The notes beneath the pieces were generated by a model, which was not told the origin of the DNA, ran no database searches, and saw only the letters and a program-made list of their open reading frames with translations. DNA of 23,581 nucleotides from a virus, in the IMG/VR virus record IMGVR_UViG_3300015374_000059, positions 1 to 23,581 of that record; one strand, written 5' to 3'. Of this stretch, positions 1,423-20,961 are shown one piece after another. The translations under genes were made by a program, and so were the position numbers. Position 1 is the stretch's first letter. Every line of letters starts with the position of its first letter.

Positions 1423-1956
1423 ATGTACTCGCAACCACTGCGCGGCGAGCCTGACCCGTTCTTCATCAACACGATTAATCGTGTTTGTCCGACATCATTT
1501 GTCATGACCGGCGTCGGCAGTTCGACCATGGGCAGTGCGATCTGGACGACCGCGAACCTCGCGCTGTTCTTTCCATTTGTCCTCACTGGGCGGCACACCT
1601 ACGTTCGGGCGTGCGTCTGCAATGGCACTGCGGTGTCCGGCAATTTTGATATTGGCGTTTACAGCAGGACCGGCACGCGATTGTTCAGCACGGGCGCGCA
1701 GGCGCAAGCCGGCATCAGTCAGATTCAACCAATCACGGTAAGTTGGACATTGGACCCAGGCGATTATTACATGGCGCTTGTGTTCAATAATATCGTGGCG
1801 ACGTGTTCGCGGACATCTCCGGCCGCCGCCAGTTTAGCCACGACCGGCTGCAAGCAAATGGCGACGGCCTATGTTTTGCCGACGACCGCCACATTGGTCG
1901 ACACGACGACGAGCTATGTTCCTGTTTTCGGCATCAGCGAAAAGAGTTGGCTATGA
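1423..1956 (+). CDS. Cassette protein A1 (tandemly duplicated virion-type protein)
   Basis: A 177-residue protein of unknown function. Recognisable blocks are PDPFFINT near the N-terminus, WTTANLALFFPF, RHTYVRACVCNG, SGNFDIGVY, GTRLFST and WTLDPGDYYMAL, ending in VFGISEKSWL. The blocks suggest a beta-sandwich with two neighbouring cysteines (ACVC). Gene 2500-3036 is a clear paralogue sharing nearly all of these blocks, and the two B proteins share a weaker version, so all four descend from one ancestor. The gene directly abuts the upstream stop and overlaps the next start by ATGA at 1953-1956. A role as exposed tail or fibre component is inferred from neighbours only. Confidence 0.65.
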   Translation: MYSQPLRGEPDPFFINTINRVCPTSFVMTGVGSSTMGSAIWTTANLALFFPFVLTGRHTYVRACVCNGTAVSGNFDIGVYSRTGTRLFSTGAQAQAGISQIQPITVSWTLDPGDYYMALVFNNIVATCSRTSPAAASLATTGCKQMATAYVLPTTATLVDTTTSYVPVFGISEKSWL

Positions 1957-2495
1957 GCTACGGTGCGCCCTCTCTTGAACGTGTTCCGATCATGATCAAC
2001 GTCAGTCTGCTTCAGATGATGATGGAGGCTCGCACGTTCTTTGGCGGCGGTGCTACGCCAAGCGATAGGACGTGGCCAGTGGCAAATCTGGCTCTCTATT
2101 TGCCGCTGCTCATTCCGAAGAAGATCAACGTAGCCAACATGTTTTGGCAGAATGGAGCCACGATCTCCGGCAATGTCTGCATGGGACTTTACAATGAGGC
2201 AGGCACGCGGTTGCAGCAGACCACCATCGTGGCGCACGCGGGAGCCAGTGCTATTCAAGCTCCGTCGATCACCGCGTTCGACTTGCCGCGCGGGCGGTAT
2301 TGGCTGGGCATTGCGTTCTCGAGCGCCACTGCGACCATTCGCGGGTTCGGGACGTCGGCGGTTGGGGCGGATGCCAACAAGTGGTGTGCAATAGGTGAAG
2401 AGGCATTAGGAAGTACGCAAATCCCCACAACGATGACGCCGGTTGCGTCGGCGCGGAATGTGTTCTTGCCGTTCATAGGCATCACCAGGAATTGA
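1953..2495 (+). CDS. Cassette protein B1 (tandemly duplicated virion-type protein)
   Basis: The start is the ATG at 1953 that overlaps the A1 stop (ATGA), giving 180 residues; an open frame extends upstream but lies inside A1. Blocks are WPVANLALYLPL, SGNVCMGLYNEAGTRLQQT, a hydrophobic FDLPRGRYWLGI segment, LGSTQIPTTMTPVA and a terminal FLPFIGITRN. These are shared closely with gene 3033-3557. They are distantly alignable to the A proteins through ANLAL, SGNxxxGxY, GTRL and the final G-x-Y-W/Y-L-G/A segment. No catalytic motif is visible. Four bases separate its stop from the A2 start, with AGGA at 2487-2490 as ribosome site for A2. Confidence 0.65.
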   Translation: MSYGAPSLERVPIMINVSLLQMMMEARTFFGGGATPSDRTWPVANLALYLPLLIPKKINVANMFWQNGATISGNVCMGLYNEAGTRLQQTTIVAHAGASAIQAPSITAFDLPRGRYWLGIAFSSATATIRGFGTSAVGADANKWCAIGEEALGSTQIPTTMTPVASARNVFLPFIGITRN

Positions 2496-2499
2496 CGTC

Positions 2500-3036
2500 A
2501 TGTATGCGGCGCCTCCAACTGGGATGCCGGACCCGTTCTTCATCCACACGTTTACGGACGATGGTGTCGGCGGCCCTATCATATCGCTCAACGCTCAAGC
2601 CTTGACGAGCACCGCTTGGGGAACGGCGAACCTCGCCCTGTTCATTCCGTTCACGATCACCGAGCGGCACACCTATGTTCGTGCGTGCGTGTGTAACGGA
2701 GCGACCGTCGCTGGAAACTTTGACGTTGGCGTTTATCGTGGCACCGCGCGGCTGTTTAGTACCGGAACGACGGCGCAAGCTGGTGTCAGCCAAATGCAAG
2801 TGGTGACGGGACTGAGTTGGACGCTTGATCCCGGCGACTACTATCTCGCCTTGGCTACCAACAGCACCACGGCAACATTCATGTGCGGAAACATAGCGAG
2901 CGGCGGATATGGAATGGCTGTCACCGGAGGCAAGCAACAGACGACAGCTTTCGTCCTGCCCAATCCGGCGACGCTTGCAAACTACGCCACGGTGTTTGTC
3001 CCCTTGTTCGGCATTTTCGAAAAGACTTGGGTATGA
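2500..3036 (+). CDS. Cassette protein A2, paralogue of A1
   Basis: The 178-residue product is the second copy of protein A. It keeps PDPFFIHT, WGTANLALFIPF, RHTYVRACVCNG, GNFDVGVY, ARLFSTG, AQAGVSQ, SWTLDPGDYYLAL and the terminal VFVPLFGIFEKTWV. The sequences diverge most in the loop after the N-terminal block (about residues 20-40) and before the last strand, as expected if exposed loops vary on a conserved scaffold. The gene overlaps the B2 start by ATGA at 3033-3036, exactly as A1 overlaps B1, which points to duplication of the whole pair. Function is unknown; an exposed virion role is an inference. Confidence 0.65.
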   Translation: MYAAPPTGMPDPFFIHTFTDDGVGGPIISLNAQALTSTAWGTANLALFIPFTITERHTYVRACVCNGATVAGNFDVGVYRGTARLFSTGTTAQAGVSQMQVVTGLSWTLDPGDYYLALATNSTTATFMCGNIASGGYGMAVTGGKQQTTAFVLPNPATLANYATVFVPLFGIFEKTWV

Positions 3037-3557
3037 GCTATTCCCCTCCTGACTATCATTTCGATCCGAAATCCATCGGCATCATGTCGTTGAATTATCT
3101 TGAGATGAAAATCGTATATTCCGGCAATCATGCCTCGATGGCTTGGCCCGCGAATAACCTCGCCATTTATTTTCCGATCTGCTTGAGCGAGAAGGCGTCG
3201 TTCGCCGGACTGTGGTGGGCAGTCGGTTCGACGGCGTCCGGCAATGCCTGCATGGGGATTTACGATGAGGGCGGAAACCGGCTTCAGCAAACCGGCATCG
3301 TGGCGCAGAGCGGCACGGGGTTGCAGTTGCCGGCGATGACGGCATTCCAATTGCCGCGCGGGCGCTATTGGTTGGGGTTGGTGCTGTCGACCACGGCAGG
3401 GACAGTGCGCGGATGGTCCTCTCCGACGATTGGGACCGATACCGCCAAGTGGTTTGCAATGGCCGAAGAGACGCTTGGCAGTACGCAAATCCCGGCGACG
3501 ATGACGCCAGTTGCCACAAGCAGAAATCCCCCGATCATGGGGCTCATGAGAGTCTAA
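3033..3557 (+). CDS. Cassette protein B2, paralogue of B1
   Basis: Starting at the ATGA overlap (ATG 3033), this encodes 174 residues. It shares with B1 the blocks NNLAIYFP, SGNACMGIYDEGGNRLQQT, a GLQLPAMTAFQLPRGRYWL segment, LGSTQIPATMTPVATSRN and an aromatic N-terminal region (residues 30-75) rich in Trp and Phe. Where B1 ends in FLPFIGITRN, B2 ends in PPIMGLMRV, so the C-terminal strand has diverged. The longer open frame beginning upstream at 2883 is inside A2 and is rejected. The next gene, 26 bases away, has its own strong ribosome site, so the duplicated unit ends here. Confidence 0.65.
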   Translation: MSYSPPDYHFDPKSIGIMSLNYLEMKIVYSGNHASMAWPANNLAIYFPICLSEKASFAGLWWAVGSTASGNACMGIYDEGGNRLQQTGIVAQSGTGLQLPAMTAFQLPRGRYWLGLVLSTTAGTVRGWSSPTIGTDTAKWFAMAEETLGSTQIPATMTPVATSRNPPIMGLMRV

Positions 3558-3583: not shown

Positions 3584-6500
3584 ATGTCCCTCCTGCTTCT
3601 CTTTTTGCCGGCGGCCGGCGGAGGGACTGTTAGCGGCACAGGTGCGGCGTCCGGCACGGGTGCAGCGACTGCGATCGGCACCGGCGTCGTAAGCGGGACA
3701 GGTGCAGCATCCGGCGCGGGTGCAGCGACTGCGACCGGCGCGAGTACCGCTGTTGCGACCGGCGCATCGGCCGGCATCGGCGATGCGACTGCATCAGGCG
3801 GCGCTGTTGGTGCAGGCGGCGACATCGCCGAACTGCCTTACATTCTCGGGCGGCGCGGACAGGCCAAGCCGTTCACGTCGATTCCCAGGATCAATTGGGA
3901 CCATCCCCTCGCCAAAGGGCTGGTCACCTACATGTTCGACTGTGGCGGCGGTCTGATTCTGGACCTTGTCACGGGCGGCCAAGCGATCAGGCAGACGAGC
4001 GGCACCATCGTCGCGCCGACGGTCGTGACCACGCCATGGGGTTCGGGTTGGAATCACCCCGACCAAGGCGCGAGCGCAACGCTTTGCTTTACGAATAAAT
4101 TTGCGCCGCTCACCGATGGCATGACGGCGGCGGCGCCGTTTTCGTTCGCGATGGCGGCGCTCAAGAGCGCTACAAACGCCGGCGCGCATCCGCCGTGGAT
4201 GTACGCGATCTCGAACAACTCGGCCTCGCAGGTCGTGTTCGGTGACGCGGGCGGCGGGCCGGGCGCTCCGATCATCCAGATTGCCAATCAAACCGGCGTT
4301 CTGTCTTTCGCCCAAGACTTTGCGGTCGGCGCATTCTCGACACTGGTCGGCACGGTCGCGAGCGCAACCTCGCTGACGGGCTATCATTTCAACAGCGCTG
4401 GCGTCAGCGAGGTGGCAACGTCCGCCTCGATCACGCTGAGCAGCATTACCAACACCTATCCGACCTTTTACGATATCGGCAACGCGGCCTATCCCAACAC
4501 GACGGCTTCCAGCATTCAGGGAAGCTGTTTTACCGGAACAATCTTCTACGGCGCGGCATGGCGCGGGCGCGCACTGAGCCAAGCCGAAGCGCGATTGCTC
4601 CACGATGATCCGTGGTGCCTGTTGCTCTTCGCCGAGGATGACATCCTCGCAGGGTTGGCGGGTGTTCCCGCGGCTGCGCCGGGTTCGGTCGGCGCGGCCA
4701 GTGGTCAAGGTGCGGCGCAGGCGGTCGGCACCGGCATCATCCCGGCGATCGCCGCCGCGAGCGGCACCGGGACGGCGACGGCCACCGGCGCATCGACCTT
4801 CACTGGACAAGGTGCAGCGGCAGGCACCGGCACCGCATCGGCCACCGGCGCAGGTCAAGGCGCGGCAAGCGGAACCGGCGCAGTCTCCGCAGTCGGCGCG
4901 GCGCTGTTTACGGCGGTCGGGTCGGCGGCAGGCACCGGCGCGGCGCAGGCAGGCAGTGCCGCGAAGGGCGCGGCGGCGGGCACCTCGACCGTTCAAGCGA
5001 CCGGCCAAGCCGCAGCCGTGGGCGCTGGTAGCGCGGCAGGTACCGGGGCAGCCACCGCCACCGGGTCCGCGTCGACCGTCTCAGCGGGTTCCGCAGCCGG
5101 TTCCGGCGCGGTCAATGGCGTCGGGCTTTCGCAAAGCCAAGGGTCCGCTCCTGGACAAGGCCTGGCGCTGGCGACCGGCGTTTCAATCTCCGCGGCCGTC
5201 GGATCGGCGACCGGGATTGGCTCTGCGGCCGGCCTCTCCTCTGCGCTGTCGTCCGGAGCGGCGGCGGGCAGTGGCGCGGCGACCGCGATTGGCACATCTG
5301 TTGCGGTCTCGACCGGATCGGCGGCAGCGACCGGCGCGGCAGCCGCACGGTCTCAATCCATCGGCGGTGCGGCCGGCGCTGGCACCGCGGTTGGCACCGG
5401 CGCCGCCCTTTCAATCATTGCGGGCGCGGCCAGTGGTGCAGGCGCGGCCACCGGCGCGGGTATCGCGCAGAGCGCAGCCGCGGCAGCGGGCAGTGGCGCG
5501 GTCAACGCGGTCGGGGCATCGGTTGCACTCGCGATCGGCAGCGCGGCGGGCAGTGGCGCGGTCACCGCACAAGTCGCCTCGCAGGGCAGCGCGGCGGGCA
5601 GTGGCGCGGCGACCGGCCGAACCGCCTCGCAGGGGGCGGTCAGCGGCATCGGCACCGCGAGCGCGGTCAGCACCGTTGTCATTCAAGTGGTCGGGTCGGC
5701 CAGTGGCGTCGGCACCGCGCAAGCGTTGGCTGGCTCGGCCTTGCTCGGCAGCGCGGCGGGCACTGGCGTCGCCACCGGCGCCGGCAAGGCGCTGGCGATC
5801 TTTGCTGGCGCGGCGGCTGGGACCGGCACCGCCAGCGCCACCAGCACCATCACGCTCACCGCGATCGGCAATGCGCCCGGCACCGGGGCAGCGACCGGCG
5901 CGGGGATTGCGCAGAGCACAGGCGCCGCGGCCGGTCTCGGCGCAGCAACCGGCGGCGGCCTCCAGACGATCACCGCGGTCGGCGCGGCAACGGGGGCCGG
6001 CGCTGCGACCGGCGTCAGCGGCTCGCTCTCGGCGGGTACGGCGGCAGGCCAAGGCACCGCCTCTGCGGTTGGCGTCTCGGCGGCGGTTGCGGTTGGATCG
6101 GCGGCCGGTTCTGGGGCGCTGCAAGCCAAAGCGCAGGCGATCGGCACCGCGGCGGGCACTGGCACGGCGCAGGCAATCGGCGCGGCGGTCGCGTCGGCGG
6201 TTGGCAACGCAACAGGTCTCGGCACCGCCGCCGCTTACGGCACGTCGTTCGGTCAGGCGGCGGGCACGGGCACCGCGACCGGCGCTGGCCAGTGGACGAT
6301 CACCGCGGCCGGTGCGGCCAGTGGCGCAGGCGCGGCCAGTGCGGTCGGGGTTGGCTCGACCGGATCGATCGGCGCGGCCTCCGGCGCCGGCGCCGCGGTC
6401 GGCAAATCGCAATCCAGCGGCAGCGCGGCCGGGACATCGACCGCCAATGCGACAAGCCTCGTGCTGGCGCGCAGTGCGGGCGCGGCGGCCGGCGTCGGCA

Positions 6501-6901
6501 CTGTCAATGCGCAATCGCTGGCGCTGTCGAAGGGCCAAGCCACAGGCAGCGGCGCGGCGTTCGGTCAAGCCCTCTCGTTTGCAAATGGCGCGGCGACCGA
6601 ACAGCGTGATACCGCGTCCGGCAACGGCGCGCTGTCGTGGGCCGTTACCGGCGATGTGCTCGAAGGTAGCGACACCGCCAACGGCATCGGTGCCACGGGT
6701 TGGGTTGCTCTGGGGGCGCCGGTCGAGGCGAGTGACATCCTCTCCGCGCGCGGCCATGTCCCGGTTCTGGTCGATCTGGTCAAAACCTATGAACTCACCG
6801 GCCAAGCCTCGCCAACGCCGAACAGCACGGGACGCAAGACCGTTGTCAGCCTCACCGGGCAGAAAACCAAACAAGCAGAAGATTGGATCGCGCAGCTATG
6901 A
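3584..6901 (+). CDS. Giant Ala/Gly-rich repeat protein with LamG-like domain, probable phage fibre or adhesin
   Basis: The product has 1105 residues. Residues 1-10 are a leucine-rich hydrophobic opening (MSLLLLFLPA); 15-80 are GTGAASGAGAAT-type repeats. Residues about 97-352 form a LamG/concanavalin-like module: NWDHPLAKGL, FDCGGG near the front, FYGAAWRGRALSQAEARLL and a DPW motif near the end, as in phage LamG-like fibre proteins. Residues 371-1002 are 34 Ala/Gly repeats of 16, 18 or 20 residues. Residues 1009-1050 are two 21-residue units (DTASGNGALSW and DTANGIGATGW starts). A short Thr/Gln/Lys-rich tail follows. AGGAGG at 3568-3573 sets the start, and the stop overlaps the next ATG (ATGA). 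The hydrophobic N-terminus could be mistaken for a signal peptide; I see no cleavage site. Receptor or surface binding is inferred. Confidence 0.75.
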   Translation: MSLLLLFLPAAGGGTVSGTGAASGTGAATAIGTGVVSGTGAASGAGAATATGASTAVATGASAGIGDATASGGAVGAGGDIAELPYILGRRGQAKPFTSIPRINWDHPLAKGLVTYMFDCGGGLILDLVTGGQAIRQTSGTIVAPTVVTTPWGSGWNHPDQGASATLCFTNKFAPLTDGMTAAAPFSFAMAALKSATNAGAHPPWMYAISNNSASQVVFGDAGGGPGAPIIQIANQTGVLSFAQDFAVGAFSTLVGTVASATSLTGYHFNSAGVSEVATSASITLSSITNTYPTFYDIGNAAYPNTTASSIQGSCFTGTIFYGAAWRGRALSQAEARLLHDDPWCLLLFAEDDILAGLAGVPAAAPGSVGAASGQGAAQAVGTGIIPAIAAASGTGTATATGASTFTGQGAAAGTGTASATGAGQGAASGTGAVSAVGAALFTAVGSAAGTGAAQAGSAAKGAAAGTSTVQATGQAAAVGAGSAAGTGAATATGSASTVSAGSAAGSGAVNGVGLSQSQGSAPGQGLALATGVSISAAVGSATGIGSAAGLSSALSSGAAAGSGAATAIGTSVAVSTGSAAATGAAAARSQSIGGAAGAGTAVGTGAALSIIAGAASGAGAATGAGIAQSAAAAAGSGAVNAVGASVALAIGSAAGSGAVTAQVASQGSAAGSGAATGRTASQGAVSGIGTASAVSTVVIQVVGSASGVGTAQALAGSALLGSAAGTGVATGAGKALAIFAGAAAGTGTASATSTITLTAIGNAPGTGAATGAGIAQSTGAAAGLGAATGGGLQTITAVGAATGAGAATGVSGSLSAGTAAGQGTASAVGVSAAVAVGSAAGSGALQAKAQAIGTAAGTGTAQAIGAAVASAVGNATGLGTAAAYGTSFGQAAGTGTATGAGQWTITAAGAASGAGAASAVGVGSTGSIGAASGAGAAVGKSQSSGSAAGTSTANATSLVLARSAGAAAGVGTVNAQSLALSKGQATGSGAAFGQALSFANGAATEQRDTASGNGALSWAVTGDVLEGSDTANGIGATGWVALGAPVEASDILSARGHVPVLVDLVKTYELTGQASPTPNSTGRKTVVSLTGQKTKQAEDWIAQL
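4694..6589 (+). repeat. 34 tandem Ala/Gly repeats, every unit 16, 18 or 20 residues
   Basis: Residues 371-1002 of the giant protein split without remainder into 34 units: 18 of 20 residues, eight of 18 and eight of 16. Each begins with a core x-A-[AST]-G-x-G-[AT]-[AV]-x-[AG], for example SAAGSGAVTAQVASQG and AAAGSGAVNAVGASVALAIG, and nearly all end in Gly. Because all units have even length, small residues (A/G) keep falling on the same parity, as in silk-like beta strands. The unit lengths sum to 632 residues, matching the 1896 bases exactly. The coding GC is very high and similar units recur at DNA level, so copy number may vary between isolates. Confidence 0.85.
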
Positions 6902-7359
6902 CAACCAAGCACCCGTTGATCGAGTTCGTGGCGGGCGACGATTGGGAAATCTTGGCGACGCTGCTTGACGAGAACGGCAACCCGTATGACCTGACCCAAA
7001 CGCCGACGATCAAATGGTGTTTGATGGACGACAGGAGTCGCGTCGTGATCGGCGACGAAGCCATCATCACCGTCACCGATGCCGAAAACGGCCAATGTTC
7101 GGTGCTGATTCCGCACACTGTCAGCACCACGGTCGCGGGCGGGCTCTACACCGACGCGCTGCGCCTGACGATTGCAGGGGCGACCGGAACGTTGTTGCTG
7201 GGGATGGTCAATGTGGTCGGCGATCCATGGGCGGTCCTAACCCGCGAAGTGGTGACATCGATCGATCTCGTGACGCCGACGCGGATACCAAACCGTACAG
7301 TCTTTCCGATCGGCGAGGCGATCGCTCCATTTGCACCGTTGAGATTGCCGCGTAAGTGA
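6898..7359 (+). CDS. Conserved phage protein, probable fibre/baseplate accessory
   Basis: The chosen start (ATG 6898) overlaps the stop of the giant protein by ATGA and gives 153 residues; another in-frame ATG at 6883 would add five residues and seems less likely. The N-terminal half has a DDWEILATLLDENGNPYDL segment and KWCLMDDRS, followed by an Ile/Val/Thr-rich stretch and LYTDALRLTIA. This arrangement resembles phage proteins annotated as baseplate or fibre accessory, sometimes described as Ig- or BppU-like, but I cannot place it firmly. No catalytic residues stand out. Its coupling to the LamG protein suggests the two act together. Function otherwise unknown. Confidence 0.6.
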   Translation: MTTKHPLIEFVAGDDWEILATLLDENGNPYDLTQTPTIKWCLMDDRSRVVIGDEAIITVTDAENGQCSVLIPHTVSTTVAGGLYTDALRLTIAGATGTLLLGMVNVVGDPWAVLTREVVTSIDLVTPTRIPNRTVFPIGEAIAPFAPLRLPRK

Positions 7360-7637: not shown

Positions 7638-7845
7638 ACCCGGCGACCGCGTCAAGCTGACCGATGCCACGATCAAATATTTATCGAGCAATAATCACAG
7701 TCGGTCGCGGCGATGGCCCGAGCGTCGCGGCACGGTGGTTCGGGTCTCGGCTGTGACTGATAACGTCACGGTCCAATGGGACGATCGCGTCAGCGTCGAT
7801 CAATGGCCCAAGCGGGCCGTGGAAAAAGTCCTTGCCGGTGCATGA
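7621..7845 (+). CDS. KOW-like small protein
   Basis: A GTG at 7621 gives a 74-residue protein; an open frame extends upstream but only through the gene before it. Residues 7-15 read PGDRVKLTD and residues 37-50 contain GTVVRVSAV and VTVQWDD. This is the order found in KOW-type small beta-barrels: a G-D-x-V start, a basic loop (SRSRRWPERR), then strands. Such proteins sit in phage packaging and head gene clusters, but I cannot assign a partner. It lies directly before an HNH nuclease gene whose start overlaps it, so the two may be used together. The start choice is uncertain. Confidence 0.5.
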   Translation: MGRELEPGDRVKLTDATIKYLSSNNHSRSRRWPERRGTVVRVSAVTDNVTVQWDDRVSVDQWPKRAVEKVLAGA

Positions 7846-8134
7846 TCATCCGCACGGCACCGGATGGTGGCAGCGCCGTCGCCTGTTGCAGCTAAAGGCC
7901 GAACCGCTTTGCCGCATGTGTCTGGCCCATGGATTGGTCACGCCGGCGACCGTCGCCGATCACATCGAGCCGCATCACAACGACTGGAATAAATTCAAAC
8001 TCGGCAAATTGCAGTCGCTCTGCGAGCAATGCCATAACCAGACCAAGCGCATGATTGAATTGCGCGGACACGGCCTCGAGGTGGACGAGGATGGCTGGCC
8101 CACCGATCCAAACCATCCGGCGAACAGGATATGA
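7838..8134 (+). CDS. HNH endonuclease, phage packaging-type
   Basis: The product (98 residues from GTG 7838; a TTG at 7832 would add two) is a compact HNH nuclease. It has a first zinc pair CRMC (residues 25-28), the catalytic ADHIEPHH segment (40-47), and a second zinc pair with histidine (LCEQCH, 61-66). Small phage HNH proteins of this build are often encoded beside terminase and head genes and assist DNA packaging or nicking. Here no terminase is in view, so that link is inference. Its start overlaps the KOW-like gene by eight bases, and GGAAAAAG at 7821-7828 is a suitable ribosome site for the GTG. Its stop overlaps an out-of-frame ATG at 8131. Confidence 0.8.
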   Translation: MHDHPHGTGWWQRRRLLQLKAEPLCRMCLAHGLVTPATVADHIEPHHNDWNKFKLGKLQSLCEQCHNQTKRMIELRGHGLEVDEDGWPTDPNHPANRI

Positions 8135-9692: not shown

Positions 9693-9896
9693 ATGGCCAA
9701 GAAACAGAACGATTTTTACTACATCGAAAACCATCGGTTCGAGGACAAGTCGATGCACGAGCCGATCCTGGCCGAAGGTGATTTTGAAGCGGCGAAGAAA
9801 GTCAGCGACGCCGTCGCGCGCAAGCTGGGCTTGACCGAGGCCGAGATCGCAGCGCTGAGCCAGCCGCCGAAGAACTGGAAAGGAAAACCCAAATGA
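9693..9896 (+). CDS. Small charged phage protein
   Basis: A 67-residue frame starts at ATG 9693 directly after the TGA of the GNAT-like gene and its stop (9894-9896) overlaps the capsid start (ATGA). The sequence begins MAKKQNDFYYIENH, with a helical segment (FEAAKKVSDAVARKLG) and a Trp/Lys/Pro tail. No domain is recognised. Its tight junctions on both sides argue for a real gene. A role near the first capsid protein, such as an assembly cofactor, is inferred only from position. Confidence 0.5.
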   Translation: MAKKQNDFYYIENHRFEDKSMHEPILAEGDFEAAKKVSDAVARKLGLTEAEIAALSQPPKNWKGKPK

Positions 9897-10942
9897 AGCA
9901 CGAAACGTTTCGGCGCGAAGTGCGCGAGCCGTCGAGCGGCAACATCGTCACCCGCGCCCTGACCGCGCGCACGATCGCCAGCCTGTGGCGCTGTCCGGTC
10001 AACGATGTCATCGCCTCGCTCTACCCCAATGACAAGGCGCTGGCGCAATGGATCATGCGGGCAACCACTGCGCCCGCCACCACGTTCACGACCGGATGGG
10101 CCGCCGAACTGGCACAGATTGTCGTTGCCGACACCGTTGCGGCGCTGGGCAATGCCTCAAGCGCGGCCGAGGTGCTGAAGCAAGCGCTGGTGCTGAACTG
10201 GAATGGTGCGGGCACGATCAGCGCACCAGGATTTGTCGCCACGGCAACGCAAGCGGGCTTCGTCAAGGAAGGCGATCCGATCCCGGTGCGGCAGTTGACG
10301 GCCGCGCCGGCGCAACTGTCGCCCTACAAGCTGGCGACGATCGCAGTCTTGACGCGCGAGATGGTCGAGAGCGGCAACGCCGAGGCGCTGATCAGCGAAG
10401 CCTTGGTGCGCGCCTGCGGGCTGGCGCTCGATGCGGTGTTCTTCGGGAGTGCCGCGGCGGTCGCCAATACTCAGCCGGCCGGCATCCGCAACGGCATCGC
10501 GACATTGACGGCCAGCAATAGCAGCGATCCATTCGGCGCGATCTTCGAGGACATGGCGGCGCTGTTGAATGCCGTCGCTCCGGTTGGCGGCAAAGGCCCG
10601 TACATCCTTGTCGCCTCACCGGGCCGCATGTTCAGCGCGGCCGGCCGCTTCCCCGGCAGGGATGAGACGGTGATCATGGTCCCCTCGTCGGCGGTCGGCA
10701 GTGACATCATTGCGATTGCGCCGAAAGCCATTGTCGCGGCGCTTTCCGCCGATCCCGATGTCGAAACGGCGACCGCCGGCACGCTGGTGATGCAGGATAC
10801 CAATCCCGCGGTTGCAGGCACGACGGGTCCGGAACGGGGCGTCTATCAAACCGAGAGCCTTGCGGTGAAAGTGCGCTGGCCCGTGTCATGGGCGCTGCGG
10901 GACTCGCGCGCGGTGGCGTGGCTGACGCCGGCTTGGAAGTGA
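9893..10942 (+). CDS. HK97-type phage capsid protein, first paralogue, without delta domain
   Basis: This 349-residue protein is recognisable as an HK97-fold capsid by comparison with the fused capsid at 13188-15422. Shared blocks are GWAAELAQ versus GWAQELAQ, GDPIPVRQ versus GLPIPVRQ, LSPYKLATIAVLTREM versus LTPKKMAVISTWTREM, PAGIRNGIA versus PAGLLNGVA, and a final ESLAVKVRWPVSW versus DSLALRMVMPLNW region. The N-terminal 60 residues lack the long coiled-coil scaffold found in the fused protein. It is therefore probably a capsid subunit that does not need cleavage, or a minor capsid or pentamer protein. AGGA at 9881-9884 supports the start, which is coupled by ATGA to the gene before. Followed at once by a glycosyltransferase. 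Confidence 0.85.
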   Translation: MKHETFRREVREPSSGNIVTRALTARTIASLWRCPVNDVIASLYPNDKALAQWIMRATTAPATTFTTGWAAELAQIVVADTVAALGNASSAAEVLKQALVLNWNGAGTISAPGFVATATQAGFVKEGDPIPVRQLTAAPAQLSPYKLATIAVLTREMVESGNAEALISEALVRACGLALDAVFFGSAAAVANTQPAGIRNGIATLTASNSSDPFGAIFEDMAALLNAVAPVGGKGPYILVASPGRMFSAAGRFPGRDETVIMVPSSAVGSDIIAIAPKAIVAALSADPDVETATAGTLVMQDTNPAVAGTTGPERGVYQTESLAVKVRWPVSWALRDSRAVAWLTPAWK

Positions 10943-12741: not shown

Positions 12742-13186
12742 TCCGGCAACCGGAATTTTCACGTGGCGCGTTTATCGGGCGAGAGGTGCCCGCAAGGGAA
12801 TGAGAGCGGGGGCATTGGGTCGCTATCGCCAGATCAAGATTGACGGCGCGAACTATCAAGCCAGCCGATTAGCCGTGTTGTGGATGACCGGACAATGGCC
12901 GAAGCGAAAGTATGATGTTGATCATCGTAATTTGAACAAGGGCGATGATCGATGGAGCAATCTGCGCGAGGCCACCCGTTCCCAGAACAAGGCAAATATC
13001 CCCGGTCGCTCACGTGCTGGCCTCAAGGGCGTCACGTTCAATCCCGTGCGAGGCAAGTATATCGCGCAGATCACAGTGAACCGCCGAGCCGTAAATCTCG
13101 GACGCTTTGATGATCCGCAATCAGCGCACGCGGCCTATGTCGCCGCCGCTTCCAAACACTTCGGTCAATTTGCGAGGGACGCGTGA
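12701..13186 (+). CDS. HNH homing endonuclease with AP2 domain
   Basis: A 161-residue protein from ATG 12701 (GGAGAAG at 12688-12694). An N-terminal region (DYDPATGIFTWR) precedes the HNH core YDVDHRNLNKGDDRWSNLRE (71-90) with TRSQNK (92-97), then a C-terminal AP2 DNA-binding module (GLKGVTFNPVRGKYIAQI, NLGRFDDPQSAHAAY, FGQFA). This is the standard layout of phage HNH-AP2 homing enzymes, which spread by cutting alleles that lack them. It begins inside the methyltransferase gene (41-base overlap) and ends one base before the protease-capsid start, so it sits as a free-standing insertion in the head module. The codon mix looks AT-richer than the neighbours, consistent with import. Confidence 0.85.
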   Translation: MLTQKKLRSLLDYDPATGIFTWRVYRARGARKGMRAGALGRYRQIKIDGANYQASRLAVLWMTGQWPKRKYDVDHRNLNKGDDRWSNLREATRSQNKANIPGRSRAGLKGVTFNPVRGKYIAQITVNRRAVNLGRFDDPQSAHAAYVAAASKHFGQFARDA

Positions 13187-13187
13187 T

Positions 13188-15422
13188 ATGCCCATCAAAC
13201 CCGGTAAAAACGAAAGCCAACAAGACTTCGTCAATCGCTGCGTGAGCGAAGTGAGCCACGCCAACCCTGATTGGGATAATGATCGGGCCGTCGCCGCCTG
13301 CTACCAGATGTGGCGCGACAAGGACAAGGCAATGGACGACGATATCGAATGCGATCCCGCCGACTATGACAGCAAAGATGAGTTCATGGAGGATTGCATC
13401 GACGAGTGTGGCGACGAGGATCGATGCCAATTGATCTGGGAGGAGCGGGCAGCGCGCGCGCAAAGCATCAAGCACAAGACCCATGCGGGTAAGGTCCATG
13501 GCCTTGAGTTTGTCCTGTCTGACGAGAGCGTTGATCGGATGGACGATGTCATTCTCAGCGATGGCTGGGACTTGGAAAACTTCAAGCGCAACCCGATTGC
13601 GCTGTTCAACCACCGAAGCGACTTCCCGATCGGCATATGGCGCGATCTGCGCGTCGAGAACAAAGAACTCCGCGGCCATCTCGAGCTTGCGCCCTTGGGC
13701 ACCAGCCCGCGCATCGATGAAATCCGCAAACTGATCGAGGCCGGCATTCTGCGCGCCGTGAGCGTCGGCTTCCGGCCGGTGGAAACCAAGCCGCGCAAGG
13801 AGTCGCAATGGGGTTCGTTCTTCACCAAGAGCGAACTTGTCGAAACCTCTCTGGTCAGCGTGCCCGCCAATCCGAACGCGCTGGCGGTCGCAAAGTCGCT
13901 GAAGATTTCTCCCGCAACGATTGATTTGGTGTTCGCCGAGCAAGGCAAACAGGACACCGGCATCAAGCGGCGCGGGTTCACTGGCGAGCAAGCCAAATCA
14001 TCTCGCAATGGAAAGGGCACCGTCATGGACGGACTTGCTCAACGCATAACCGACTTGGAAACGCAGATCGTCGCCAAGCGGGAAGGACTCGAGACCCATC
14101 TTGGCAAGATGGACGATTCCAACGTCAGCGATGCTGATCTGGAAGCGACAAGCCGTTTCAACACCGACATCGCGCAACTCGAAAGGACGCGCGAGGCGCT
14201 GTTGAACTCCGAGCGGTTGCTGGCGAAGAACTCGACCGGCGACGGCAACGGCAAGGGCCGTGCGATGGTCACGACATCGCATGCGTCGATCGCGTCGCCA
14301 ACCGTGATCAACGGCGGGCGCAAGAAAGACTACGACCTGATGGATTACCTGATCAGGGCGGCGACGGTCAGTTACGTTGCCAAGGCATCGGGGCGTCCGG
14401 TCGAGGAAACGAGGCAGCGCATTTATGGCGACGACGATGGCACGCGCGCCATGGTCGAGATCGTCACCCGCGCCGCCTCCGCGCCGGCACTGACCACGGT
14501 TGCGGGTTGGGCACAGGAATTGGCCCAGACGCGCTACGCCGATTTGATGCCGCTCTTGATGCCGAAAGGACTTCTGACTCGGCTCGCGCCGAAAGGATTG
14601 ACTCTCGACTTCGGGACCGGCGGCAGGATCGTTATTCCTACACGCTCGCGTACACCGTCACTCGCGGGATCGTTTGTCGGTGAAGGTCTGCCGATCCCCG
14701 TTCGTCAGGGCGCATTCACCTCGCAAACCCTGACGCCGAAGAAAATGGCGGTGATCTCCACGTGGACTCGAGAAATGGGAGATCACAGCACGCCAGCGAT
14801 CGAGGGATTGATCCGCGAGGCGATCCAAGTCGATACGAGTGTTGCGGTTGACTCGGTGTTGATCGATGCCAACCCGGCGACCGTGGTTCGTCCGGCTGGT
14901 TTGCTGAATGGTGTTGCAGCCACCACCGCCACGTCAGGCGGCGGCATCGCGGCGCTGGTCGGCGACATCGCCGGCTTGATCAATTCGATCTCGACGGCGA
15001 CTTACGGCAATACGCGCAATCTCGTTTGGCTGGCGAACCAAACCGACTTGTTGCGGGCGTCACTGCTCACTGCGACGAATACGGGCATTTTCCCGTTCTA
15101 TAACCAGATTCAGGCCGGCAACCTGAATGGCATTCCGATCATCGACTCGGCGACGGTCCCGGCGAAAACTCTGATCCTCGTCGATGCCGCCGACTTCGTC
15201 GTGGTCGGGGGCGATGCTCCGCGGATGGAAATGAGCGATCAAGCTACTCTGCACATGGAAGATACGACTCCCCTTGAGTTGGTCGCATCTCCGAGCACGG
15301 TCGCTGCGCCGCAACGCTCGCTATTCCAGACCGATTCGCTCGCATTGCGCATGGTGATGCCGCTCAATTGGACTCAGCGGCGGGCCGGCACAATTGCATG
15401 GACCCAGTCGGTGACCTGGTAG
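13188..15422 (+). CDS. Prohead protease fused to HK97-type major capsid protein
   Basis: The chosen start (ATG 13188, GAGGGA at 13174-13179) gives 744 residues. Residues 1-95 are acidic and Cys-rich with NESQQDFVNRC and AVAACYQMWR. Residues about 100-245 are an S78 prohead protease with FNHRSDFPIG (His142), LRAVSVGFRPVE (Ser192) and ETSLVSVPANPNA (Glu219) as the expected catalytic positions. Residues 283-346 form a coiled-coil delta/scaffold region. Residues about 380-744 are the HK97-fold capsid (GWAQELAQ, GLPIPVRQ, TWTREM, PAGLLNGVA). Cleavage would normally occur between scaffold and capsid. The gene is paralogous over its capsid part to 9893-10942. An internal ATG at 14025 may also be used. 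Confidence 0.88.
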   Translation: MPIKPGKNESQQDFVNRCVSEVSHANPDWDNDRAVAACYQMWRDKDKAMDDDIECDPADYDSKDEFMEDCIDECGDEDRCQLIWEERAARAQSIKHKTHAGKVHGLEFVLSDESVDRMDDVILSDGWDLENFKRNPIALFNHRSDFPIGIWRDLRVENKELRGHLELAPLGTSPRIDEIRKLIEAGILRAVSVGFRPVETKPRKESQWGSFFTKSELVETSLVSVPANPNALAVAKSLKISPATIDLVFAEQGKQDTGIKRRGFTGEQAKSSRNGKGTVMDGLAQRITDLETQIVAKREGLETHLGKMDDSNVSDADLEATSRFNTDIAQLERTREALLNSERLLAKNSTGDGNGKGRAMVTTSHASIASPTVINGGRKKDYDLMDYLIRAATVSYVAKASGRPVEETRQRIYGDDDGTRAMVEIVTRAASAPALTTVAGWAQELAQTRYADLMPLLMPKGLLTRLAPKGLTLDFGTGGRIVIPTRSRTPSLAGSFVGEGLPIPVRQGAFTSQTLTPKKMAVISTWTREMGDHSTPAIEGLIREAIQVDTSVAVDSVLIDANPATVVRPAGLLNGVAATTATSGGGIAALVGDIAGLINSISTATYGNTRNLVWLANQTDLLRASLLTATNTGIFPFYNQIQAGNLNGIPIIDSATVPAKTLILVDAADFVVVGGDAPRMEMSDQATLHMEDTTPLELVASPSTVAAPQRSLFQTDSLALRMVMPLNWTQRRAGTIAWTQSVTW
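14011..14027 (+). promoter_or_regulatory. Possible internal ribosome site and start inside the fused gene
   Basis: Within the fused protease-capsid frame, GAAAGGG (14011-14017) lies seven bases before an in-frame ATG at 14025. The ATG falls at the boundary between the protease tail and the coiled-coil scaffold, so initiation here would yield a 465-residue scaffold-capsid protein without protease. This position is where separate capsid genes usually begin. Whether it is used cannot be seen from sequence. Confidence 0.35.
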
Positions 15423-15495
15423 GTTTCAATCCATTCCCCGTGTGCCAAGCACACGGTTTCAATCCATTCCCGTGTGCCAGTTTTTGGCACACGGG
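15422..15495. repeat. Two tandem hairpin repeats resembling type I-C CRISPR repeats (minus strand)
   Basis: The gap between the capsid stop and the next gene holds two copies of GGTTTCAATCCATTCCC followed by GTGTGCCA, starting at 15422 and 15455. Hairpin 1 (15438-15456) has an 8-base-pair stem CCGTGTGC/GCACACGG with loop CAA. Hairpin 2 (15469-15495) has an 11-base-pair stem CCCGTGTGCCA/TGGCACACGGG with loop GTTTT. Read on the minus strand each unit is a hairpin followed by AATGGATTGAAAC. There is no T-run after the stems, so a standard terminator is unlikely. Possible roles are an RNA processing or attenuation site, a protein-binding site, or a CRISPR repeat mimic. Confidence 0.75.
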
Positions 15496-15515
15496 CAACT
15501 CATGAGGAGTGACAG

Positions 15516-15836
15516 ATGACGAAATACGCAGACGACCCGAGGACCGAGCAAGCCAAGAAACAGCTTGGCGAGGACAAGAAGATCGTCGAGCACTCGCGCG
15601 GCGAATATGCCGAGCGCTCCAAGGGCAGGCCAACGCCGACGCAAGAGGAAAACGACATGGCAATGTTGGGCGCCCATATCCTTGAGCATGATGACGATGG
15701 CAGCGGTCCGGATATCTACAACCGCCCTTTCGATGAGCGCCGAACTGCCGAGGAGCACACCAAGCGCCTCGAAGCGGAACGGCGCCCACAAACCTACCAG
15801 ACGCGGCGATCGGAATCGTCCGGCAGCACGGGCTAG
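15516..15836 (+). CDS. Small charged phage protein, helical and disordered
   Basis: The 106-residue product is strongly charged (Glu, Asp, Lys, Arg) and lacks a hydrophobic core. A central segment EENDMAMLGAHILEHDDDGSGPDIYN is the most structured part. GAGGAG at 15504-15509, six bases from ATG 15516, sets the start just after the hairpin pair. It sits between the capsid fusion and the portal gene, three bases before the latter. I recognise no domain; a head completion or scaffold-like role is a guess from position. Its frame and start signal support a real gene. Confidence 0.55.
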   Translation: MTKYADDPRTEQAKKQLGEDKKIVEHSRGEYAERSKGRPTPTQEENDMAMLGAHILEHDDDGSGPDIYNRPFDERRTAEEHTKRLEAERRPQTYQTRRSESSGSTG

Positions 15837-15839
15837 GCA

Positions 15840-17285
15840 ATGGCAAGCTGGCTGTCCCGCGTCTCCCGCTTTCTGACGACGAAAGCGGCCGAAGGCGAAT
15901 ACCGTCCCGGTCCATGGTATTTGCCGATCACGGGCGGCTGGCTGCCACAAGAGTGGGGGCAATACACCAACTGGTGGCAATTGGGTTACGACCCGATTGG
16001 CACTGGTACGCAATCCGCCATGGTCGAAGCGTGTGTCTCGGCCTATGCGCAAACAGTCGCGATGCTTCCCGGCGATCACTGGCGGACGAACAGCAAGGGC
16101 GGGCGGGATCGGGTGAAGAACTCGGCTCTCGCCCGCTTGCTGCGCTATCCGAACGACTATCAGACGATCAGCGATTTTCTTTTGAACGCGGTGCGCTCGC
16201 TCTATCTCACCGGCAACGCCTATGCGCTCTGCTTGCGCAACGATCGCTTTGAGATTGACGAATGGCATTTGATGAGGTCGGAGGTGTCATTCCCGCGCCT
16301 CGCCACCAATGGCGAAGTGTTTTACCAACTGCATGGCAATGACATCATCAACCGGCGCCTTAGTGACGAAACGCTGTTGGTGCCCGCGCGCGATGTGCTG
16401 CACATCCGCCTGCACAACATGAAGCAACGCTATCCCGTGCCGTTGGTCGGCGAGAGTCCGATCTGCGCGACTTATGGCGACATCGGCGTTGGCAATGCCA
16501 TCGCGGCGCAACAGCAAGCGTTTTACATGAACGAGGCGCGGCCGAGCGCGGTGCTCTCGACCGATCTCAACCTCGACAAGGATCAGACGCAGGCCTTGCG
16601 CGATCGTTGGAATGACCAAGCCAAGGGATTGCACAAAGGCGGCACGCCGATCCTGACGCACGGACTAAAGGTGCAGCCGTGGTCGGTCGGTGGTCGGGAT
16701 GCGGCGACGGCGGAAATCCTCAAGCTGTCGAATGAACATATCGCGCTGGCGTTTCGCATCCCGTTGCAAATCCTGGGGCTGGGCGGCACGGGCTTCGGCT
16801 CGACCGAACTGTTGATGCAAAGCTGGATTGCGAGCGGCTTGGGTTTCTGCCTCAACCATATCGAAGAGGCGATCGGCGTTTTGTTTCTGTTGAAGGGCCA
16901 GCCCGACGAGTATGTCGAATTTGACACGGCGGCGCTGTTGCGGTCGGCGATGCATGATCGCATCAGCGCGCTGAAAGAAGCCGTGCAAGGCGGCATCTTC
17001 TCGCCGAACGAAGCCCGCAACATGGAAGGTCTGGAAGATGTGAAGTTTGGCGACGAACCGCGTGTCCAGCAGCAAGTCGTGCCGCTCTCCGCCGCCGCAG
17101 CAATCCCGCCAGCGCCGCCTGCGGGCGGTCAGCCGCCGATGGCGGGACAACCGGCATCGCCACTTCATCAGCCGCCAAAACCTGCGCAACAGCCCGAAAA
17201 AGGCAACCGCGATGAACTCGATCGAGAAGTCAGAAACCTTTTTAGAACCGCCGATCGAATCGGACGGGGGCGAGCTTCTTCTTGA
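15840..17285 (+). CDS. Phage portal protein, HK97 family
   Basis: This 481-residue protein has the usual portal layout: an N-terminal region with PWYLPITGGW, helical VEACVSAYAQTVAMLPG, LYLTGNAYA in the first half, then SEVSFPRL and DVLHIRLHNM in the wing region. Later come IPLQILGLGG and GSTELLMQSW, then SPNEARNMEG near residue 390, which recurs in HK97-type portals. Residues about 415-480 are Pro/Gln/Ala-rich and probably disordered. Portals form the dodecameric ring at the capsid vertex through which DNA is packed. It is placed after the capsid here, unlike the usual portal-protease-capsid order. The collagen-like gene starts inside its last 74 bases. Confidence 0.9.
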   Translation: MASWLSRVSRFLTTKAAEGEYRPGPWYLPITGGWLPQEWGQYTNWWQLGYDPIGTGTQSAMVEACVSAYAQTVAMLPGDHWRTNSKGGRDRVKNSALARLLRYPNDYQTISDFLLNAVRSLYLTGNAYALCLRNDRFEIDEWHLMRSEVSFPRLATNGEVFYQLHGNDIINRRLSDETLLVPARDVLHIRLHNMKQRYPVPLVGESPICATYGDIGVGNAIAAQQQAFYMNEARPSAVLSTDLNLDKDQTQALRDRWNDQAKGLHKGGTPILTHGLKVQPWSVGGRDAATAEILKLSNEHIALAFRIPLQILGLGGTGFGSTELLMQSWIASGLGFCLNHIEEAIGVLFLLKGQPDEYVEFDTAALLRSAMHDRISALKEAVQGGIFSPNEARNMEGLEDVKFGDEPRVQQQVVPLSAAAAIPPAPPAGGQPPMAGQPASPLHQPPKPAQQPEKGNRDELDREVRNLFRTADRIGRGRASS

Positions 17286-18525
17286 CGCGTGGCGGATTTG
17301 TCTCGCCGAGGCGTTGGAGCGGCAGCAACGGGCATGGCAGCGTCATGTCGAGTTCATGGAGGCGAAAAGCGCCGCGATCATCGGCCAGCTCGAAGCCAAG
17401 ATCGCGACGCTCGAGACACGAATTCAATCCCGGCTGGATTCAATCCCGGCGCCGGAACCGGGGCCGGTCGGGCCGGTCGGCGACATCGGGCCGATCGGGC
17501 CGGAAGGGCCGGCAGGACGGGCTGGCGAGGTCGGAGAGCGCGGTTTCCGGGGCGAGCCGGGTGAGAGTGGCCCGCGCGGCGAACGCGGCTCAGTCGGCCC
17601 CGTAGGGCTTCGCGGCCCGCGTGGAATTCCGGGCATCAAAGGTGCCCGCGGCGACGCCGGCAAGGCCGGTCGGGACGGCAGGGACGGCAAGGATGGCGAA
17701 CCGGGCGAGCGCGGCAATAGCGGGCCGGTCGGCTTGCGTGGTCCGCGTGGTCTGATCGGTGTGCGCGGCGAGCGCGGCGAGAAGGGAGCACGGGGCGAAC
17801 AAGGCAAGCGAGGCGAACATGGCCAAAAAGGCGAAAGAGGTGAAACAGGACAACCGGGCGAACAAGGTCCGGTCGGAGAAAAAGGCGAGCGCGGTGAAGC
17901 GGGCGTCCGTGGGCCGCAAGGCGAGCCGGGGCCGGTAGGTCCGCAAGGCCCGCAGGGCGAACGCGGATATCTAGGCGAACGCGGTGAAGCGGGATTGCAG
18001 GGGCCGCAAGGTCAGAAAGGCGATCCCGGTTCGCTTCCGATGATCAAACAGTGGCGCGCTGACGCAATCAGCTATGCCGGCGAAGTCGTGTTCTGTGATG
18101 GCGGATCGTGGCAAGCGCAAAAAGACACGGCGCAGAAACCGCCCCACTCCGATTGGATGCCTCTCGCTCATGCTGGCCGCAGTGCCACTAGCCCTGTCAT
18201 TCGCGGCACTTTTGATCCTGCTCAACAATATGGTGCGTTGAACATCGTGGCGATGAACGGCTCAAGCTTCATCGCGAAGTCCGACGATCCGGGCGAGTGT
18301 CCCGGCGATGGCTGGCAATTGATCGCGTCGGCGGGCAGGCAGGGCAAGCCGGGGCCGAAGGGCGATCGCGGTGAACAGGGGCCGGCGGGCGTGTCGCTCG
18401 CGGGCGCGGAGATCGAGCGCCGAAGCTATACGATCAAGCTGAAGCTCTCGAACGGCATCGTGATTGCGATCCCCTGCCGCGAGATGTTTGAACAGTACCA
18501 CGAGGAAAGCGGCGACAATGGCTGA
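17212..18525 (+). CDS. Collagen-like phage protein with two GXY blocks, probable fibre
   Basis: ATG 17212 gives 437 residues and overlaps the portal by 74 bases; upstream in-frame ATGs would lie deeper in that gene. Residues 20-75 form a helical or coiled-coil trimerisation region. Residues 84-273 are an uninterrupted Gly-X-Y run with Gly at every third position (64 glycines), rich in Arg, Glu and Pro. Residues about 280-372 are a small Trp-rich domain (SWQAQKDT, SDWMPLAHAG, GTFDPAQQYG, SSFIAKSDD), similar to ligand-binding modules in phage collagen-like proteins. A second GXY block follows at 375-393, then a C-terminal strand ending NGIVIAIPCREMFEQ. It probably forms a trimeric exposed fibre on the head or neck. 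Confidence 0.8.
   Translation: MNSIEKSETFLEPPIESDGGELLLDAWRICLAEALERQQRAWQRHVEFMEAKSAAIIGQLEAKIATLETRIQSRLDSIPAPEPGPVGPVGDIGPIGPEGPAGRAGEVGERGFRGEPGESGPRGERGSVGPVGLRGPRGIPGIKGARGDAGKAGRDGRDGKDGEPGERGNSGPVGLRGPRGLIGVRGERGEKGARGEQGKRGEHGQKGERGETGQPGEQGPVGEKGERGEAGVRGPQGEPGPVGPQGPQGERGYLGERGEAGLQGPQGQKGDPGSLPMIKQWRADAISYAGEVVFCDGGSWQAQKDTAQKPPHSDWMPLAHAGRSATSPVIRGTFDPAQQYGALNIVAMNGSSFIAKSDDPGECPGDGWQLIASAGRQGKPGPKGDRGEQGPAGVSLAGAEIERRSYTIKLKLSNGIVIAIPCREMFEQYHEESGDNG
17461..18030 (+). repeat. Uninterrupted collagen-like Gly-X-Y tract (64 glycines)
   Basis: Every third residue from 84 to 273 of the collagen-like protein is glycine, with no exception in my residue-by-residue check. X and Y are mostly Pro, Glu, Arg, Lys, Gln and Val. 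The DNA repeats are not exact, which should limit slippage. The lack of interruptions implies a continuous triple helix. Confidence 0.85.
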
Positions 18526-19174
18526 CATCAGTTACAAAGTGTTGGTCCCTGCCGCGTCCTATGATTTGGCGACACTCGCTGAAATCAAGACGATGATCGG
18601 AGTCCCGGCTGGCGACACCAGCGAGGACGCGCAGTTGGCGCTCTGGATCACGCAATATTCCGATCTGATCGCGACCATCTGCGGGCGGGTGTTCGCCAAG
18701 GAGAAGGTGATCGAATCCTGGCGCGGCGACAGCAAACCGCTCGACACCGACAACGGGCGGATTTTCCTGACGCACTACCCGGTCGCCGACAGCGACATCG
18801 TGTCGATCAGCGGGCCGGACGGCACGCCGATCACCGCCGGTTATGAACTGGAAAACCGCAGCGGCAAGCTGCAATTCTTCAGCGCGTCATGGGCCGAGCC
18901 GGTCCGCATCACCTATTCGGGCGGTTACAATCTGCCGACTGAAGCGCCGCCGGCATTGAAACAGGCATTGGCGTTGATCGTGCAATACGCGCGGATGTGG
19001 CAGTCGCGGCAACTGACATCGGGCGTGCGCTCGATCTCGCACCGGGAAAGCCGCGTGCAATTCTTTGATGTCAATTCGTCGCTGGCGCGGATGCAGGGCG
19101 GCAGCGGGCCGATGGCTTATGCCAATTCGCTGGTGACGCCGTTCCTGTCGGCTTACATGCGCCACTATGTTTGA
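18518..19174 (+). CDS. Head-tail connector protein, gp6-like
   Basis: Starting at ATG 18518 (GAGGAAAG at 18502-18509), overlapping the collagen-like gene by eight bases, this encodes 218 residues. The N-terminal TLAEIKTMIG and DAQLALWITQYSDLIATICGR form the helical pair typical of gp6-type connectors (DNA packaging protein family). Next come RIFLTHYPVADSDIVSISG, an ITYSGGYNLP loop and a helix PALKQALALIVQYAR. Such proteins form a ring under the portal and join head to tail. The C-terminal 50 residues (VNSSLARMQGG onwards) are less typical. Position after the portal fits. Confidence 0.8.
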   Translation: MADISYKVLVPAASYDLATLAEIKTMIGVPAGDTSEDAQLALWITQYSDLIATICGRVFAKEKVIESWRGDSKPLDTDNGRIFLTHYPVADSDIVSISGPDGTPITAGYELENRSGKLQFFSASWAEPVRITYSGGYNLPTEAPPALKQALALIVQYARMWQSRQLTSGVRSISHRESRVQFFDVNSSLARMQGGSGPMAYANSLVTPFLSAYMRHYV

Positions 19175-19580
19175 GATCAAGGTCGAGAACGTCGAAGCGC
19201 TACAGCGCAAACTCGATCAACTCAATCAGCAAGTGCTCGCGCTACACGACCACATTCCGAAGGAACTGGTTGAGTGGCAGACCACGGATATGCGGCGCAA
19301 GTTTCCCAACATCGCAGTCATACACACGCCGTCATCGCTACAGGCCGAGACCCGAGTCTGGCCGCGCTCGCGGTTGGATGTCAGCGGGCCGGGCGTCATG
19401 CAAAGCCTAGAACCGGGTTTCAAGCGGCCGGCGGGGACCGTCAAGACAGGCCCGACCGTGTCGTCGCCGAGGGGCATGGGTCGCCGCGCGATCATACGGC
19501 CGATCCTGCGCGTCAATTTATTGCGGCGGCTTTACGATCGGATGATCGATGTCGCCGGCGAGGCACTGAAATGGCCATAA
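19167..19580 (+). CDS. Neck or tail-completion type protein, HK97 gp10-like candidate
   Basis: This 137-residue protein starts at ATG 19167, overlapping the connector stop. The N-terminus (EIKVENVEALQRKLDQLNQQV) is a helix, then DMRRKFPN, and the C-terminal half has basic PRGMGRRAIIRPILRVNLLRRL segments. Size, a helical start with a basic tail, and the slot right after a gp6-like connector match the HK97 gp10/tail-completion kind of protein, but no signature clearly proves it. Assignment is by synteny. Its stop overlaps the next start by 10 bases. Confidence 0.55.
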   Translation: MFEIKVENVEALQRKLDQLNQQVLALHDHIPKELVEWQTTDMRRKFPNIAVIHTPSSLQAETRVWPRSRLDVSGPGVMQSLEPGFKRPAGTVKTGPTVSSPRGMGRRAIIRPILRVNLLRRLYDRMIDVAGEALKWP

Positions 19581-19927
19581 ATCTCGACGTGACATTGCAG
19601 TCGCCGATCTTCGATTTCTGGTCGGTGCCGGTGACGTTCATTCCGATCAAGTCGCAACCGAACACGCTGAGTTATGTCGGCCGCGGCATTCTCGGCACCT
19701 ACTCAACCGATGTCGTCGGGCTCGATGGCTCGCTCTATTCCGATCAACGCACGATCCTCGATATCCGCGAGGCCGAGTTTCCGATCATGCCGGTGCAGGA
19801 CGATCGCGTCATCATTGCCGCTGACTGCAACGGGGTCGATCGAGGCGAGTGGCAGATCATCGATACCACCAGCAACGGCGGCGGCCAGACCATGCTGACG
19901 ATCCGCAAATACGAAACGATCATGTAA
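19571..19927 (+). CDS. Small neck/head-tail joining candidate
   Basis: I use ATG 19571, inside the end of the previous gene, giving 118 residues; the frame is open further upstream but shadows that gene. The protein has a beta-rich pattern: INLDVTLQSPIFDFW, VTFIPIKSQP, FPIMPVQDDRVIIAAD, WQIIDTTSNGGG and MLTIRKYET. This resembles head-tail stopper or joining proteins in the same slot of tailed phages, though weakly. It precedes a probable tail terminator. Function is inferred from order only. The stop overlaps the next ATG by one base (TAATG). Confidence 0.5.
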   Translation: MAINLDVTLQSPIFDFWSVPVTFIPIKSQPNTLSYVGRGILGTYSTDVVGLDGSLYSDQRTILDIREAEFPIMPVQDDRVIIAADCNGVDRGEWQIIDTTSNGGGQTMLTIRKYETIM

Positions 19928-20932: not shown

Positions 20933-20961
20933 ACGCAATCCACCATTAAGGAGGGCATCAT

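Follow-up and report, generated by a model that had tools for sequence, protein, structure and literature searches.

An alanine/glycine-rich repeat with two-residue alternation in a probable phage adhesion protein and its relatives

An Ala/Gly-rich repeat with a two-residue alternation builds most of a 1105-aa phage protein and recurs, joined to exchangeable domains, in more than 40 other phage proteins, in which the most frequent unit length is 20 residues. It appears to be a widely distributed and so far undescribed element that phage adhesion proteins use as a shaft or spacer. The window, i.e. the whole stretch of DNA analysed, is a 23,581-bp IMG/VR virus fragment of a contractile-tailed phage with a Mu/SfI-type sheath. 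The open reading frame studied here probably encodes a virion adhesion protein of the tail or head fibre type, with the array as its beta-structured shaft or spacer. Novelty lies in the repeat and in its modular use, while the term "giant", applied to the protein in an earlier sequence-only reading, overstates a length of 1105 aa. An uncatalogued and widespread shaft repeat would aid annotation of receptor-binding proteins in metagenomic phages, now mostly listed as "hypothetical protein", and would mark the boundaries of adhesin domains. The gene is organized as follows:

3584-6901, + strand: coding sequence of the repeat protein, 1105 aa (putative phage adhesin/fibre), with homologues L056, L016, L297 and L299
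3608-3817, + strand: N-terminal repeats, residues about 9-78 (profile match at 3614-3811, E 2e-9)
3818-4693, + strand: globular domain, residues 79-370, LamG/concanavalin-like from motif order only
4694-6589, + strand: main array (residues 371-1002), which the unit parse divides into 34 stretches of 16, 18 or 20 aa
5789-6391, + strand: segment modelled with AlphaFold2, residues 736-936, predicted as all beta, each unit contributing two strands (pLDDT 74, pTM 0.66)
6590-6739, + strand: degenerate units, residues 1003-1052, from sequence reading
6740-6898, + strand: C-terminal cassette ...DLVKTYELTGQ...GRKT...LTGQ...WIAQL, kept in L016, L056 and L067 despite differing N-domains

Repeats are thus found also N-terminal of the globular domain, and degraded units continue C-terminal of the array to about residue 1050. 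Two further ORFs over the array, of 787 aa (+ frame) and 487 aa (- strand), are regarded as GC-rich shadow ORFs because homologues keep the reported frame.

Array units and two-residue alternation

Residues 371-1002 divide exactly into 34 units of even length, as the sequence-only reading had claimed. The 632 residues comprise 18 units of 20 aa, eight of 18 aa and eight of 16 aa, with the core x-A-[AST]-G-x-G-[AT]-A-x-[AG]-x-G. Unit parsing across the window protein and its relatives shows that G-x-G is near-invariant and that the A positions are conserved. A dynamic-programming parse, in which any spacing from 10 to 32 was permitted, likewise yielded even spacings only (35/35, N-terminal stretch included), and an iterated PSSM placed all 45 anchors at odd residue numbers. 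Every one of the 17 spacings that differ from 20 is even (p = 8e-6 under equal odds of odd and even, for units that are not independent).

Unit lengths are even because the alternation runs unbroken through the array. Ala and Gly occupy 79% of positions at one parity (91% together with Ser) and 29% at the other; this difference of 0.50 compares with a maximum of 0.17 in 10,000 shuffles. In a two-state phase HMM, no phase slip was detected over 632 residues at slip rates of 0.001 and 0.01, and a rate of 0.05 produced one self-cancelling pair at 926/929. Both the two-residue register and the small-residue face proposed earlier are supported, and even length is an arithmetic consequence of continuous alternation rather than a separate signal. 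Acidic residues are absent from the array (0/632; 4694-6589, residues 371-1002), and its eight charged residues are all Lys or Arg, each on the non-small face.

Even lengths might alternatively have been generated by DNA slippage in hexanucleotide (dipeptide) repeats, structural selection being absent. The sequence is Ala/Gly-rich and GC-rich, and a few short tandem arrays persist in it, detected by TRF only as small local arrays with units of 48 bp and 24 bp. Against this origin, third codon positions match in 48.2% between units that share a four-fold-degenerate residue, where 45.8% is expected from codon usage. Synonymous sites are almost randomised between units, so recent slippage did not take place, the units are of long standing, and conservation acts on the amino-acid pattern; the same pattern is also kept in diverged phages. 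The protein pattern of the array is selected and is not a product of recent DNA slippage, and the slippage origin of even lengths is disfavoured as very improbable.

The array of the window protein has no match in Pfam, NCBIfam or PHROG, where the composition filter of HMMER may mask weak ones, and a PDB sequence search returned no match for the repeat, in agreement with the earlier view that it falls outside known types that could be named. The repeat of one relative matches weakly phrog_23524, a family without assigned function. Matches to NCBIfam NF033849 in L056 and L071 are far under the cut-off and look compositional. A collagen triple helix (PF01391) was rejected, since the periodicity of the array is two-residue and not G-X-Y and no Pfam match was obtained; a collagen match occurs instead in the gene at 17209. 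In the literature, no paper was found that combines alanine/glycine-rich, silk-like or beta-solenoid with phage fibre.

The repeat in other phage proteins

Two close relatives were reached without using the repeat, L016 via capsid synteny and L056, a 1220-aa homologue, via the C-terminal cassette. The others come from a degenerate DNA pattern scan of IMG/VR contigs, and the matches listed represent a lower bound. Because the pattern required one 20-residue spacing, the search favours the modal length to some extent, but it leaves the parity of the remaining lengths unselected. The spacing parse took in 44 non-redundant proteins among the matches listed, the window protein included.

Among these parsed proteins, length 20 accounts for 557 of 816 spacings and 71 of 816 are odd; comparison of parity in homologues thus gives no strict rule. 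In the group that shares the next-door gene of the window protein (window, L056, L299, L297, L016, L112 and L131), odd spacings are limited to 2/199, or 2/81 of those other than 20. Outside the group, 69 of 193 non-20 spacings are odd among the matches listed, which still departs from one half (p = 5e-5). The two sets differ with a Fisher p = 3e-10 for a grouping made post hoc, and L150, not a member of the group, has 0/29 odd spacings. The statement that unit lengths always change by two residues consequently holds for the window protein and, almost without exception, for its group, but not for the other relatives. Odd length changes in relatives sit in the variable half of the unit, beyond the 12-residue core. 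Since odd units are present, the parity constraint is graded, a strong bias and not a law; such a graded bias would connect beta register directly, and in a testable way, with the tolerance of indels.

A close-relative search with the globular domain found no match in viral contigs. Comparison of the array or the domain with named phages (tblastn) gave nothing useful, the low-complexity filter probably masking the array, and with L071 as a query only the LamG part was matched. Matches in a pattern scan of genome contigs were mostly due to chance. A single match among 297 genomes sampled from the family of a Bradyrhizobium record is apparently a spurious low-complexity ORF.

Predicted structure of the array

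Structure was predicted with AlphaFold2 for two monomeric segments, residues 736-936 with 60 repeat segments as input (model 1) and residues 79-500 (model 2). Model 1 contains beta structure only, with moderate confidence (pLDDT 74, pTM 0.66, parts <70), as anticipated from the alternation in the sequence-only reading. In model 2 the repeats have pLDDT mostly 74-86, with strands at about 369-374, 378-384, 388-394, 398-404 and onward. Strands recur about every 10 residues, two per unit, and consist of about 7 aa followed by 3-aa turns. The globular domain is predicted poorly in the same model (pLDDT about 30-50).

Extreme composition (54% Ala+Gly) and the regions with pLDDT <70 could be explained by a disordered low-complexity linker having no defined fold. 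Strict alternation, the near-invariant G-x-G, conserved A positions, regular strands at pLDDT 74-86 and an almost complete lack of charge make this explanation unlikely.

In the proposed organization, the array would be a shaft of stacked short beta-strands in which each 20-residue unit forms two strands of about 7 residues. The core would contain a fixed x-G-x turn, followed at a distance of about 10 residues by a variable one. Side chains of Ala, Gly and Ser would be packed tightly on one face, while Thr, Ser, Val, Ala and Gln, together with few Lys and Arg, would face outward. A two-residue indel at the variable turn would alter the length of a strand pair and leave the faces unflipped, and for this reason even changes may be tolerated and odd ones mostly removed.

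Foldseek searches against PDB gave no significant match for model 1 (E >= 1.7), the weak ones being mostly beta-helical or solenoid folds, nor for model 2 with the globular domain included, where matches were mostly short fragments, several of them of non-solenoid proteins. In BFVD, two uncharacterised phage proteins were retrieved, with E 5e-3 (the best, from Caudovirales) and 2e-2. Covariation between neighbouring units revealed local coupling alone, with no contact signal for parallel or antiparallel stacking. We infer, weakly, a two-sheet beta-solenoid as the preferred topology.

The same shaft role might be performed by strands arranged as an antiparallel cross-beta meander of the lacewing type, in single or paired sheets. 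In lacewing-type cross-beta silk, short strands carry an alternating small-residue face of Gly, Ala and Ser. This is an animal silk for which no homology is expected, and its likeness to the phage array consists in the small-residue face and the short strands. Even spacing of the roughly 7+3-residue strands in model 2 fits a meander, as do the Gly/Ala face and the non-significant matches of model 2 to short non-solenoid fragments; the matches of model 1, also not significant, are mostly beta-helical or solenoid, and an antiparallel covariation signal is absent. We regard the meander as a rather doubtful, still credible arrangement.

A different objection concerns the monomeric models themselves, which would mislead if the array were a homotrimeric shaft similar to the triple beta-spiral of adenovirus fibre. 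Phage and adenovirus fibres are mostly trimers, and alternation with two strands and a Gly turn per repeat would also suit a beta-spiral. The phage units, 16-20 residues long and built on an almost pure Ala/Gly core, are unlike known beta-spirals, whose hydrophobic core is larger, so that a trimer of this kind is not the expected outcome.

Among known repeats, the Curlin repeat of CsgA has units of about 20 residues, each with two strands. The weak, non-significant fold matches of the array include some BFVD entries named "Curlin associated". The array does not have the Ser/Gln/Asn ladder residues of Curlin, and the Curlin_rpt profile (PF07012) did not match in 8 records, while the E. coli control was matched. 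The left-handed beta-roll of the YadA head also shows small-residue Ala/Gly alternation in an adhesin, but its motif and unit length are unlike those of the phage array, and YadA_head (PF05658) gave no profile match.

We tentatively consider it possible that the shaft represents an undescribed fibrous fold, a beta rod with a tight Ala/Gly core and silk-like chemistry, which in many uncultivated phages would serve as a modular spacer between exchangeable N-terminal adhesins and a C-terminal virion anchor. If true, such a small-core rod would offer a stiff spacer that is simple, genetically encoded and adjustable in length through the number of repeats.

Exchangeable domains and genomic context

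Residues 79-370 of the window protein have no match in Pfam, PHROG or PDB, and none over the cut-off to Laminin_G_3 (PF13385). The domain aligns with LamG of L071 and L070 (MAFFT), and its motif order, starting with HPLAKGLVTYMF and ending with RALSQAEARLLHDDPW, is LamG-like by eye; a lectin-like mode of working is therefore possible, and a LamG-type assignment plausible on motif order. The LamG domain previously ascribed to the window protein is accordingly without family support there, while L071, bearing the same repeats, has a clear one (E 2e-22). Other N-terminal or internal domains accompany the repeat elsewhere: a SPRY-like domain with a score under the cut-off in L112, a domain matching phrog_13352 "minor tail protein" in L299, Gly-rich domains in L118, L072, L140 and L297, and several domains without family assignment. 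L297 (11927-16651, 1574 aa) is a complete version of L067 and apparently has three adhesin-like domains with repeats between them (by eye).

Within each of the groups window/L056/L067, L065/L133/L111/L147 and L126/L076, the C-terminal cassettes resemble one another, whereas N-domains, where present, have no detectable similarity. Such a pattern points to a variable adhesin at the N-terminus and an anchor at the C-terminus, opposite to the polarity of fibres of the T4 or lambda type. The N-terminal side would bear an exchangeable, probably sugar-binding globular domain, and the cassette together with the overlapping next gene would form the conserved, probably virion-facing end. Such are the virion location, polarity and ligand that we infer for the protein. 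In L158/L300, a tail protein (phrog_1101, E 1e-143; weak match to central tail fibre J) carries the repeats as its C-terminal portion, which argues for their exposure on the tail.

Surrounding genes of the window are:

1423-3557, + strand: upstream, four small genes of virion type, forming two pairs of paralogues in the alternating order A-B-A'-B' (A/A' 53%, B/B' 46% identical)
6898-7359, + strand: next gene, 153 aa, in ATGA overlap with the stop of the repeat gene; phrog_1084, a family without assigned function
13107-22530, + strand: protease-capsid fusion, portal, collagen-like protein, connectors and tail sheath, from family matches

In L016, L056, L131, L067/L297, L299 and, weakly, L112, the repeat gene is followed by a homologue of the 6898-7359 gene, and a second phrog_1084 protein lies in a fibre-like region of G008. 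The site of the pair differs from phage to phage: in G015 it is flanked by terminase genes, in G008 by the sheath gene and a tape-measure-like one (by eye), and in the window it precedes the capsid genes. Adjacency to virion genes in the window, the tail-protein fusion in L158/L300 and the G008 site agree with a virion fibre or adhesin; position away from the classical tail-fibre site in G015 and in the window counts against it.

Lectin-like (LamG/concanavalin) phage tail fibres and adhesins also combine modular, exchangeable binding domains with a long repetitive shaft, and are encoded in virion modules. Unlike in those fibres, the repeat of the window protein falls outside collagen or any Pfam/NCBIfam family, and the protein has its variable domain at the N-terminal and its conserved cassette at the C-terminal end. 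One such protein, gp78 of Caulobacter phage CcrRogue ("putative lectin-like domain protein", 2805 aa; L302 881-9298), was reached via a blastn match and has Gly-rich and LamG-like domains with long beta-type repeats (by eye). Its repeats are of another sequence (GxIGTITVT...) with no core match, and it was rejected as a relative.

Two HK97-type major head protein genes are present in the window, at 9893-10942 and 13107-15422, the second being a prohead protease fusion. Between them are TPR-like and methyltransferase-like ORFs (by eye), and this set is kept in many relatives. The collagen-like G-X-Y protein (17209-18522) has a frame that overlaps with the final part of the portal gene. A short HNH-endonuclease-like ORF at about 7830-8060 overlaps the start of a GNAT-like ORF at 8055.
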